Assembly: GCA_021324735.1 (NCBI GenBank)
Contig: JAJPIO010000009.1
Span: forward strand, 514,510 to 578,509
Direction of reading: 5' to 3'
Source of the DNA: Bacteroidota bacterium
GTDB lineage: Bacteria; Bacteroidota; Ignavibacteria; Palsa-1295
Length of the DNA stretch: 64,000 nucleotides
Shown here in pieces: positions 1,135-19,122 of the stretch. Under the pieces are notes generated by a model, which did no database searches, had not been told where the DNA came from, and saw only the letters and a program-made list of their open reading frames with translations. Position numbers and translations under genes: made by a program. Every line of letters starts with the position of its first letter. The first letter of the stretch is position 1.

Positions 1135-1362
1135 GAATTAAGAATTACGAATGACGAATTACGAATGGCAAGCCGTTCGCGATTCGTCATTCCCGTCTGC
1201 TTTCTTAGTCCCATCTTCATTTCTTCGCTGCGCCTAAGCTCTTGCTAACGGTTTTGTTATCCTTGCTACGACATCAATTAATACCGCTTACTCGTAATTC
1301 GTCATTTGTAATTCGTCATTCTCTGCTACAATTCGTCATTTGTAATTCGTCATTTGTTATTG
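1135..1362. repeat. Inverted arrays of degenerate heptanucleotides (aattacg / cgtaatt, cgtcatt)
   Basis: Left array aattacg-aatgacg-aattacg-aatggc. Right array cgtaatt-cgtcatt-tgtaatt-cgtcatt...attcgtcatt-tgtaatt-cgtcatt. Confidence 0.85.
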
Positions 1363-1376
1363 TCCTATTTTTGTGC

Positions 1377-1706
1377 ATGGCCGAAGATAAAGACGAGAAT
1401 ATTCCCCGCGATATACGCGAATACGCGCATAAGGCAGCTACACAGTCGGTACTATCGACGCAGGCTTCTCAGCAGGCACAGGAACAGGCGAAGATCATGC
1501 GCGAGGCTGGTCCGTATCTCACGCTTGGCATTCAGATGATCCTAACGATCGGCATTTTCTTCGGGATCGGCTATTGGCTGGACCATCACTTCAACACTAC
1601 CCCTCTCTGGATCGCGATCTTCACGGCATTCGGCTCCGTTGCCAGTTTAGTCTATTTCATCGTGACCGTGATCCAGCTCGGGAAGAAAAGCGAAGGAAAG
1701 AAGTAA
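1377..1706 (+). CDS. AtpZ/AtpI-like ATP synthase-associated membrane protein
   Basis: Two-TM protein (LGIQMILTIGIFFGIGYWLDHHF...TAFGSVASLVYFIV) at the head of the atp operon. ORF 1242..1706 trimmed to ATG 1377 because the upstream translation is repeat sequence. Confidence 0.75.
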   Translation: MAEDKDENIPRDIREYAHKAATQSVLSTQASQQAQEQAKIMREAGPYLTLGIQMILTIGIFFGIGYWLDHHFNTTPLWIAIFTAFGSVASLVYFIVTVIQLGKKSEGKK

Positions 1707-1897
1707 AGAACCCCGTCCTTTTCAAAGGGGGAAGCAACGGATAGCAGGTCTAATTTGGCTTAAAATGGCAGGAAGAAAGCGATTTGCAAAAGCCGCGCCG
1801 CAAGAGTAAAAAATCTGAAACGAAAGCCAAATAAAAAGCATTTGGTGCGCGCCACCGGGATGGTTTAGGCCTTCCGGAGGTGAAAGAAAAGTAACAT

Positions 1898-2458
1898 GTG
1901 GCTGATTTTTCCGTATTCAGCGGAAAGATCCCAGCCCTCAGAATGATACCACCAAAAGCACCGAGGCGAAAGGTACACGATTTGACGTTTAATAGCGACG
2001 CCCCTCAGCAACCTCTAAGCTCCGTGGCAGCCGTTCCGGCATCCCAAAATGTTGCCGATTTTCTATTAAGCCAGGATGCCAGCCGTTTCTTCATCCGCCG
2101 GTATTTTCTTTTGACCGGCGCTCTCATTGCAATTTCCTCCGTTTCGCTCTTTCTCTTGGCGAGCCCGGAATTTCGGACTGCGTGCTTCTTCGGAATGGCG
2201 TTCCCGATCATCACCAGCTTCGTTAGCTTCCTCGTGACCGAATGGGCCTTCGAACAGCCGAATATGATCTTTATGACCGTTGCGGTCATGAGCCTCATGC
2301 TTCGGATGTTCAATCTGCTTATCGCATTTTGTGTCGGATACCTCATTCTCAAGCTTAATCCGGCCGGCGTTATTATCGGCTTGCTTGGGACCTACTTCTC
2401 CTACCTCGTGATCGAGATCTCTTACGTACATAATAAAGGTAAATTGCTGGGACAATAA
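1898..2458 (+). CDS. ATP synthase subunit I-like membrane protein
   Basis: GTG start after GGAGGTGAAAG; four TM helices; directly upstream of atpB. Confidence 0.6.
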   Translation: MADFSVFSGKIPALRMIPPKAPRRKVHDLTFNSDAPQQPLSSVAAVPASQNVADFLLSQDASRFFIRRYFLLTGALIAISSVSLFLLASPEFRTACFFGMAFPIITSFVSFLVTEWAFEQPNMIFMTVAVMSLMLRMFNLLIAFCVGYLILKLNPAGVIIGLLGTYFSYLVIEISYVHNKGKLLGQ

Positions 2459-17600: not shown

Positions 17601-17849
17601 TTCGTGAATCGTGTACAGAACCTTCGAAAGGAATCGGGCTTCGATGTTACCGATCGGATCGGTATTTTCGTGGCCTCGAAATCGGACGAGATCATGGCTG
17701 CCGTGCGGGCTCATGCTGCGTTTATCCAGCAGGAGACGCTCGCCGAGTCGATCGCTTCGGATGGTGAAGCGCTTACGGAAGCGGCGTCCGCGACGGTCGA
17801 AATCCTCGACCACGAGGCAACGATCCGGCTGGTTCGGGTACGGGCCTAA
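14640..17849 (+). CDS. ileS: Isoleucyl-tRNA synthetase (IleRS2-like)
   Basis: 1069 aa; [43 protein letters not shown]; altered HIGH motif reads GIHH. Confidence 0.95.
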   Translation: [1069 protein letters not shown]

Positions 17850-18046
17850 GTCGCACTTTAGGCTCGTCCAATGGCCGTTAAAACGGTGGTTTTGTTGCTA
17901 CCAAATCACCGTACTTTTTCGGATTCTTTCGGTCTTAGGGTTGTTTTGACTCATCCTTTTAGAAAAAGGGTATTCTGGGCTGTTTTCTACAATAACAGGC
18001 AGAATTCATTTTTAACCTAAGGGATGCTTCAGTCATCCATAACCCT

Positions 18047-19015
18047 ATGGCGAAAACACAGAAGGTAAAGCGGGCTGTAACGTCGGCAAAACCCGCAAAG
18101 CGGGCAGGAGCCTCCAAAGCTGCAAAACCGAACGTAAAGTCGGCTTCCCGGCCAACCGCCAAGGCCAAGCGGCCGGTGGCGAAAAAAGCTGTTGCTAAAA
18201 AAGCAGCGCCTGCAAAAGTCGCCAAGCCTGCCAAAAAGGTCGTTGCACGGAAACCGGTAGTGAAGAGTCGCACGAAAGTTGCGACATCAAAAAAAGCTTC
18301 CGGAAAGACCGGGACGGGTTCGAAAATTGCCATAGGGGTGGTCAGTGCGACCATGGCGGCAACCGCAGGAGCGGTCGCTATAAAAGCGGCTTCGAAAGCG
18401 AAGTCCGCAGCACCAAAGAAAGCTCCAGTGGAGCAACCAAGGAAGAATTTACTAATGCCAACAAACACAAACGGTAAGCAAAAGGAAGTTGCACCCGGTG
18501 GCGGCATCGTTCAGCCGGCCACCAAATCGGCGCCTGCGATGCGCCTTCGAGCTGACGATGCAGAAATATTAGCGAGTGCCAAAGAGCGTTACGGTCGGAA
18601 AGACCTTGACATGTTCAAGAAGCTCCTAATTGAGCAGCGGCAGGAAGCGAAAGAAGAATTCGATATTCTGAGCCAGAACATACTCGATACATCGGGTGAG
18701 TTCGAAGCAGACAATCAGACCTATTCGCTGCATACAGCCGAGCAGGGCACCGATGCGATCGAGCGCGAGAAGACATTCCTTCACGCACAGCGTACGAGCG
18801 ATTACATTAAGAAACTCGATGAAGCTTTAGAACGTATCGAACGTGGTACCTATGGTATCTGCGTTATCTGTGGCGGCCTTATCGAGAAAGAGCGTCTGCA
18901 GGCCGTGCCGATCACTCAGAAGCACGTCGACTGCAAGAACCGCACGCAAGTTCGCAAGCCGACTGCGACCGAAGGCTTCCGCGACTTTGAGGAGTCTGCC
19001 GCCAGCGCCGAATAA
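18047..19015 (+). CDS. TraR/DksA-type zinc finger protein with Lys/Ala/Pro-rich histone H1-like N-terminus
   Basis: N-terminal AKKAVAKKAAPAKVAKPAKK tail; C-terminal ALERIERGTYGICVICGGLIEKERLQAVPITQKHVDCK. Confidence 0.88.
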   Translation: MAKTQKVKRAVTSAKPAKRAGASKAAKPNVKSASRPTAKAKRPVAKKAVAKKAAPAKVAKPAKKVVARKPVVKSRTKVATSKKASGKTGTGSKIAIGVVSATMAATAGAVAIKAASKAKSAAPKKAPVEQPRKNLLMPTNTNGKQKEVAPGGGIVQPATKSAPAMRLRADDAEILASAKERYGRKDLDMFKKLLIEQRQEAKEEFDILSQNILDTSGEFEADNQTYSLHTAEQGTDAIEREKTFLHAQRTSDYIKKLDEALERIERGTYGICVICGGLIEKERLQAVPITQKHVDCKNRTQVRKPTATEGFRDFEESAASAE

Positions 19016-19122
19016 GTGCTAAGTGCTTTGTGTTGAGTGCGAAGTAACTCAGGGCAAAGATTGGCCTAAGAGGCAACATCGAAGGATGGGATTCTCAGCA
19101 CTAAGCACTTAACACCAGCACT
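19013..19122. repeat. Inverted arrays of a different heptanucleotide (taagtgc / gcactaa)
   Basis: taagtgc-taagtgc-tttgtgttgagtgcgaagt, about 50 nt spacer, cagcactaagcacttaacaccagcact. Confidence 0.82.

Follow-up and report, generated by a model that had tools for sequence, protein, structure and literature searches.

Four junctions between co-directional genes in the genome of a Bacteroidota bacterium (GTDB lineage Ignavibacteria, Palsa-1295; NCBI GenBank assembly GCA_021324735.1) hold inverted pairs of short-period sequence arrays, which we refer to as wedges. They lie within a stretch of 64,000 nucleotides (nt), called the window in the following (contig JAJPIO010000009.1, positions 514,510 to 578,509). 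We consider it probable that these wedges belong to two families of tiny mobile elements that have a single gene, are bounded by such arrays and form hairpins between genes, the wedges being the gene-less form. The complete element of the first family would consist of a PF05635 gene (S23 or 23S rRNA-intervening-sequence four-helix bundle) between inverted arrays of 7-nt, sometimes 8-nt, units, and that of the second of a GxxExxY gene (PF13366) between inverted arrays of 9-10-nt GATT units. Heptanucleotide repeats have been noted for decades in cyanobacteria, xanthomonads and other bacteria without an account of their origin, and the widespread genes for S23/four-helix-bundle and GxxExxY proteins likewise lack an explanation. 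Once connected, repeats and genes both acquire an identity that can be tested, namely as small mobile elements and their gene-less remains.

The four wedges of the window

The original prediction, made from the letters of the window, had reported four junction elements with inverted short-period arrays and treated them as one class. All four are present, but they fall into two classes (Table 1): elements 1, 3 and 4 are built of degenerate 7-nt units and represent the heptamer class (PF05635-type), whereas element 2 is built of 9-10-nt GATT units (GxxExxY-type). Each begins at most 3 nt past the upstream stop codon or overlaps it, and ends 3-14 nt ahead of the next start codon; in two of the four, the stop codon of the upstream gene comes from the array itself. 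The AATTACG pattern matches the window 17 times, compared with 0.41 matches expected. When folded as RNA, all four elements do better than shuffled sequences (z of -2.4, -4.4, -4.9 and -3.6 for elements 1 to 4), and of the structured mRNA spacer suggested earlier, it is the structure that this result supports. A search of the whole window against Rfam returned only a tRNA at the gathering score, with no match for the elements, and no family for elements 1 and 2 at a relaxed threshold. An open reading frame (ORF) of the PF05635 (S23p) family is absent from all four wedges.

Table 1. Wedges and their arrays at the four gene junctions (J1-J4) of the window.
Feature	Positions	Strand	Description	Basis
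Element 1 (J1)	1134..1362	.	gene-less heptamer wedge between the gene at 705-1130 and the atpI-like gene at 1377-1706; 3 nt past the stop codon (1128-1130), 14 nt ahead of the start at 1377	sequence, folding, congener comparison
Element 1, left array	1134..1166	+	period 7, unit AATTACG/AATGACG	sequence inspection, pattern matches
Element 1, right arrays	1292..1362	-	CGTAATT/CGTCATT, inverted mate of left array	mate z 11.5
Element 2 (J2)	3882..3999	.	gene-less GATT-class (GxxExxY-type) wedge between atpE (3652-3879, stop codon 3877-3879) and atpF (4010-4513, start 4010)	sequence, folding, relatives
Element 2, left array	3882..3941	+	9-10-nt units (ACCAGGATT...)	period and ends compared with GxxExxY elements
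Element 2, right array	3958..3999	-	AATCCTATCAATC...AATCCTGGT	sequence, folding
Element 3 (J3)	14554..14636	.	gene-less heptamer wedge between a glycosyltransferase gene (13631-14566) and ileS (14640-17849)	relatives, folding
Element 3, left array	14554..14584	+	heptamers; overlaps the glycosyltransferase gene in its final codons and stop (14564-14566)	sequence
Element 3, right array	14605..14636	-	heptamers; 3 nt ahead of ileS start	sequence
Element 4 (J4)	19013..19122	.	gene-less AGTGCTA wedge between a DksA/TraR-like gene (18047-19015) and lspA (19128-19781)	relatives, folding
Element 4, left array	19013..19045	+	heptamers TAAGTGC/TGAGTGC; the upstream stop codon (19013-19015) is the first TAA of the AGTGCTA array	sequence
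Element 4, right array	19098..19122	-	heptamers (CACTAAGCACTTAACACC)	sequence, folding

Period-7 arrays across the genome

Genome-level array statistics were obtained from contigs C15 and C4 of the window's genome (G000; 1.195 Mb), where genes were predicted with a simple dicodon caller and intergenic DNA makes up about 10.6% of the sequence. Scanning the gaps for any inverted repeat is dominated by terminators; we instead used array-anchored detection, which requires an inverted mate with z of at least 4 no more than 1 kb from the array. The only lags enriched in intergenic DNA are 7, 14 and 21, with 10 segments at lag 7 and 14 at lag 14, compared with about 1.8 in shuffles. An inverted mate accompanies 23 of the 34 intergenic period-7 arrays but just 1 of the 31 arrays of other periods, which bears out the claim that the array halves are inverted beyond chance. 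This near-exclusive link also speaks against the possibility that the arrays are plain microsatellites of heptamers that polymerase slippage created and local rearrangement inverted, which do not move and enclose genes as mere bystanders, even though heptamers are over-represented simple sequence repeats in many bacteria, according to work cited in PMC4692102.

The predicted confinement to stop/start junctions proved to be a bias. While 34 of the 41 period-7 arrays are intergenic and the distance to the upstream stop codon is usually short, several elements lie 32-476 nt away (32, 73 and 476 nt were seen), and one element of the genome is flanked by a divergent gene pair. Paired elements occupy co-directional gaps in 12 of 13 cases, compared with 520 of 742 background gaps, which is not clearly different at this sample size. 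Because co-directional gaps are short, the tight fit to stop and start codons is mostly what insertion into short operon gaps should produce. The suggested targeting of gene junctions is thus not upheld, as insertion anywhere in an operon gap of 17-50 nt would give the same distances, with purifying selection removing the rest. One heptamer wedge between divergent genes (L035, C15:183194-183342) lies about 250 nt upstream of recA and could affect a promoter.

PF05635 genes within inverted arrays

Searching G000 for PF05635 yielded four strong members, three of which lie plainly within inverted heptamer arrays of three different units; the fourth is array-bracketed as well once its flanks are correctly taken. 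Across the bacterial family of this genome, most of the PF05635 genes tested are bracketed by inverted arrays, each with its own unit. The host itself is close to Candidatus Kapaibacterium, as the locus of one family member matches a named Kapaibacterium record without a difference over 3.3 kb. For a scan of named genomes from many phyla, the alignment of all PF05635 proteins of the family was too diverse as a query, and a subset alignment was chosen. This choice limits the outcome to the subfamily concerned: among the 80 best loci, inverted periodic arrays (inverted score of at least 15) are found near both gene ends at 65, compared with 3 of 53 control ORFs of the same loci. These 80 loci include Cyanobacteria, Planctomycetota, Bacillota, Proteobacteria, Bacteroidota, Acidobacteria, Gemmatimonadota and Chloroflexota. 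Of the 65 array-bearing loci, 54 score best at period 7 or 14 and another 8 at period 8. The left arm is purine-rich at 53 of 61 loci, arm GC content tracks local GC content (r 0.73) and 47 of the 50 heptamer units are distinct; the best partner of a left arm is its own right arm at 57 of 61 loci.

Small genes in general are not framed in this way. At the same score, only 12 of 322 small G000 genes have inverted flanks: heptamers at two PF05635 genes and a lipoprotein-like gene (i.e. heptamer-type bracketing in 3 of 322, two being PF05635), GATT arrays at three, and the remainder being Y1-transposase genes with ordinary ends and a few others. With a gene association this far above controls, non-mobile microsatellites are a highly unlikely explanation.

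Two further candidates were rejected. At locus L006 (1546-1989), a minimal nucleotidyltransferase gene lies between inverted AATTACG arrays, which prompted us to consider such genes as general cargo; this was ruled out, with 1 of 29 genes of that kind in the family bracketed. Likewise, stop codons built into the unit do not account for its sequence, as the left-arm strand shows no clear enrichment (0.46 compared with 0.41 in shuffles). One PF05635 query against phage records gave no match.

The PF05635 protein itself is a candidate for the insertion role, judging by its relationship to Avd, a partner protein in diversity-generating retroelements (DGRs): homology between PF05635 and Avd has been noted (PMC10053308), and a PF05635 member gives a weak bAvd match. 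A solved relative, Xanthomonas XCC0516, forms a homopentamer of four-helix bundles according to PMC4990558. The same kinship could point to RNA-mediated (retro-)mobility, in which a reverse transcriptase would act in trans, with the PF05635 protein in the role of Avd. However, 10 of the 13 genomes of the family, G000 included, have no RVT_1 match; a reverse transcriptase was rejected as the partner on these grounds, and we regard this route as barely credible.

GxxExxY genes and GATT arrays

All 25 of the GxxExxY genes that were testable in the family are enclosed by inverted arrays, which are of the GATT type in most cases, and two of the three GATT-flanked small genes of G000 encode GxxExxY proteins. 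Element 2 is similar in its ends to the copy at C8:216422 (ACCAGGGATTACTGG...). Unlike the heptamer family, the GxxExxY family has partly conserved ends: besides the GATT arrays, an outer tag, (G)TCTGAACY...GTTCAGA(C), is common to many of its elements (L251-L276). Going by its Pfam name (PDDEXK_3), the GxxExxY protein is a member of a nuclease-fold family and likewise a candidate for the insertion role.

Occupied and empty sites

One presence/absence comparison comes from related Nostoc plasmids, at the gap that separates a traM-like gene from the gene after it. This gap is empty (50-52 nt) in p057_K, p057_A, pn2 and UHCC 0302. In pNe_5 and pC052_D it is occupied by a PF05635 gene with AGGGAAC arrays on either side, and in pNsp_c, the backbone of which is 94% identical to that of pNe_5, by a gene-less 260-nt wedge of the same unit. 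Inverted ends without a gene thus coexist with gene-bearing relatives that share these ends, as in miniature inverted-repeat transposable elements (MITEs), both here (pNsp_c and pNe_5) and for the GATT wedge and the GxxExxY elements. The array of pC052_D has one heptamer more than that of pNe_5, which shows that slippage does occur, as the microsatellite explanation would have it; that explanation does not account for gaps in which the unit as a whole is either there or missing. In another Nostoc plasmid, p057_H (L285, 913-1252), AATTCAAAA arrays and small palindromic repeats lie in a composite insert, perhaps as nested insertions.

Gene decay is seen in the gap between tRNA-Gln and prs. An intact PF05635 gene within heptamer arrays is found there in G000 and its relative G002, followed by a series with in-frame stops (G003), internal deletions (G005) and a C-terminal remnant of about 45 nt (G001), and by wedges without any gene in G010 and G008. 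Other relatives have a GATT wedge (G006), a GTAG-type palindrome (G012) or no array element (G004 and G007) at this position. The original prediction had offered a mobile element as one possibility and proposed to compare syntenic gaps for presence/absence; a mobile element is supported by gaps that are empty in some relatives and hold the gene or a wedge in others. In several species (loci L238, L240, L241 and L243), a second gene-less wedge of similar unit lies upstream of tRNA-Gln, opposite the first, as if neighbouring arrays shared units.

The junctions of the window vary as well. J1 is closed up in G006, leaving no room for an element. The AATTACG wedge of J3 recurs in G001; at this junction G006 has a fragment, G003 a palindrome and G002 a gap of 17 nt. 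At J4, the AGTGCTA wedge is shared with G002 and G006 and decayed in G001 and G005 (folding z of -1.4 and -1.7); G004 has a GTAG-type palindrome there, and G007 and G012 have plain gaps of 41 nt. J2, between atpE and atpF, is filled in all ten species examined by hairpins that all beat their shuffles (z of -2.2 to -7.8) and are drawn from no fewer than three sequence families without relation to one another. G000, G005 and G006 have GATT wedges, G001 and G008 have heptamer wedges, G002, G004 and G012 have palindromes of the GTAG type or similar, and G003 and G007 have other stem-loops.

Since J2 is never empty, we keep as a serious companion hypothesis that the wedges are mainly selected RNA structures, i.e. 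that operon junctions recruit any palindrome for processing, stability or translational uncoupling. A hairpin between atpE and atpF may indeed be favoured, and the survival of arm complementarity after gene loss fits such selection. As an account of the wedges as a whole, however, this is somewhat unlikely, given the nearly empty J3 of G002, the plain J4 gaps of G007 and G012 and the decayed J4 hairpins of G001 and G005, and it leaves unexplained why PF05635 and GxxExxY genes are bracketed by arrays in many phyla. Selection on hairpins may therefore add to the mobile-element explanation rather than replace it, and the atpE/atpF junction, with its unrelated hairpins across all the species examined, lends itself to testing whether operon control recruits mobile hairpins.

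The GTAG-type palindromes that fill the same slots in congeners raise another possibility, namely that the wedges resemble MITEs or repetitive extragenic palindromes (REPs) and are mobilized in trans by the RAYT/Y1 tyrosine transposases of this genome. G000 has 11 Y1_Tnp genes, and REPs, too, sit close behind stop codons (PMC3733652). Yet the ends around the Y1 genes are ordinary palindromic terminal inverted repeats and not arrays of heptamer or GATT units; among the 11, L120, with an array-like stretch, is at most a partial exception, and RAYT transposases were rejected as the linked gene on the basis of these flanks. Moreover, the wedges end in GAATTAC, AGTGCTA or ACCAGGATT and lack GTAG or CGTC tags, and locus-specific ends are hard to square with sequence-specific recognition by RAYT. 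Mobilization by these enzymes is therefore improbable.

Two features of the window lie outside the wedges. Its ATP synthase operon is interrupted by two extra genes, at 5155-5973 (between delta and alpha) and 7638-8810 (between alpha and gamma), and a 15-nt tandem unit (GTGCCACTGTGCAAA, 6.3 copies) occupies 21435-21528, in the gap ahead of the gene at 21574.

A model for the origin of the wedges

We propose that complete or gene-less elements insert into intergenic gaps of operons, where the gene decays, as seen at the prs site, through stop codons and internal deletion while the complementary arms persist. The remaining arms would then form a transcript hairpin between the stop codon and the next start codon. 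As the unit is locus-specific and the arms stay matched, we infer that they re-template each other via the hairpin, by template switching and 7-nt slippage, such that the unit sequence would turn over and only period and complementarity would be kept. Such concerted arm evolution rests mainly on the comparison across loci, because the arm match by species at the prs site is modest (mean 21.0 with the own arm, 15.8 with those of other species). The RNA hairpin would be tolerated and might sometimes be retained for insulating or processing the flanking cistrons, through RNase III-type cleavage or decoupled translation. Ends that conserve their period but not their sequence would be unusual for any mobile element and pose a direct mechanistic question.

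Several observations weigh against this model. No relative was found to have the gene at any of the four window sites, and no transposase is linked to the elements. Genes of other kinds are sometimes bracketed, namely a nucleotidyltransferase gene, the lipoprotein-like gene and a GNAT gene. The one candidate for a target-site duplication is a 3-bp TCA duplication that fits a composite insert, that of Nostoc p057_H, in which the arrays are not at the ends of the insert. Lastly, the PF05635 proteins of the prs site are 57-63% identical between species, no closer than copies elsewhere; descent of these gene copies from one shared insertion is therefore likely but not proven.

More broadly, and tentatively, PF05635 genes and, in parallel, GxxExxY genes might define a widespread, unnamed class of one-gene mobile elements, the ends of which would be recognized or rebuilt by period and self-complementarity instead of sequence, such that nearly every copy has its own unit. 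If so, much of the unexplained heptanucleotide repeat content of bacteria, along with the rRNA intervening sequences, would be a product of this class.

Comparison with known systems

The complete elements resemble the intervening sequences (IVSs) of 23S rRNA, in which a PF05635 gene lies in a complementary hairpin frame, gene decay is observed and horizontal spread has been proposed (PMC4990558). IVSs are, however, located in 23S rRNA helices and cut by RNase III, whereas the present elements are found between protein genes, with arms made of short-period arrays. The window elements share with IVSs the complementary, stem-forming ends, but neither the location in an rRNA gene nor an S23p ORF inside.

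REPs and REPINs with their RAYT genes (PMC3733652) are likewise small and palindromic and follow stop codons, for the most part in gaps between co-directional or convergent genes, and also come in gene-less and gene-bearing (REPtron) forms. They differ in having a conserved sequence with a GTAG or CGTC tag, the GTAG ones together with a RAYT gene, whereas the wedges conserve only their period and go with PF05635 or GxxExxY genes; neither a tagged palindrome of 20-40 bp nor the same repeats at a RAYT gene are found for the wedges.

Short tandemly repeated repetitive sequences (STRRs) are period-7 intergenic arrays close to start codons as well; TAACTGA heptamers occur in Beggiatoaceae, Cyanobacteria and Bacteroidetes, and a horizontal origin is suspected (PMC4679880). 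Elements 1, 3 and 4 share their tandem, intergenic 7-nt units, whereas element 2, with its 9-10-nt units, falls outside. That study describes STRRs as directly repeated, apart from one indirect repeat in its main genome, and reports no gene family of the PF05635/GxxExxY kind with them (PMC4679880). The wedges are instead inverted pairs with units that differ by locus and not direct arrays of one genome-typical unit; with their locus-specific, inverted 7-8-nt arrays, elements 1, 3 and 4 fit the proposed array-bounded PF05635 class.

The closest precedent is found in Xanthomonas, where each genome has 70-75 convergent pairs of degenerate, G-rich heptamer arrays, intergenic and nearer to the upstream ORF; the units in Xanthomonas and Nostoc are GGGAATC and GGGGA(C/T)T (PMC4692102). 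These pairs are like the wedges in being degenerate, inverted 7-nt arrays in intergenic positions near the upstream ORF. They differ in that a single unit per genome is reported and treated as a G-quadruplex repeat, and is connected neither with a gene nor with empty sites or units specific to a locus. The earlier statement that paired inverted arrays are not known to be described thus holds only in part: the arrays as such have been reported, but not their link to PF05635 or GxxExxY genes. In the openly searchable literature, as distinct from subscription literature, no link of such arrays to either gene family was found, and the arrangement of arrays plus gene appears to be undescribed as such. 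Inverted heptamer pairs are therefore already known from Xanthomonas, and it is their tie to PF05635 and GxxExxY genes that is new.

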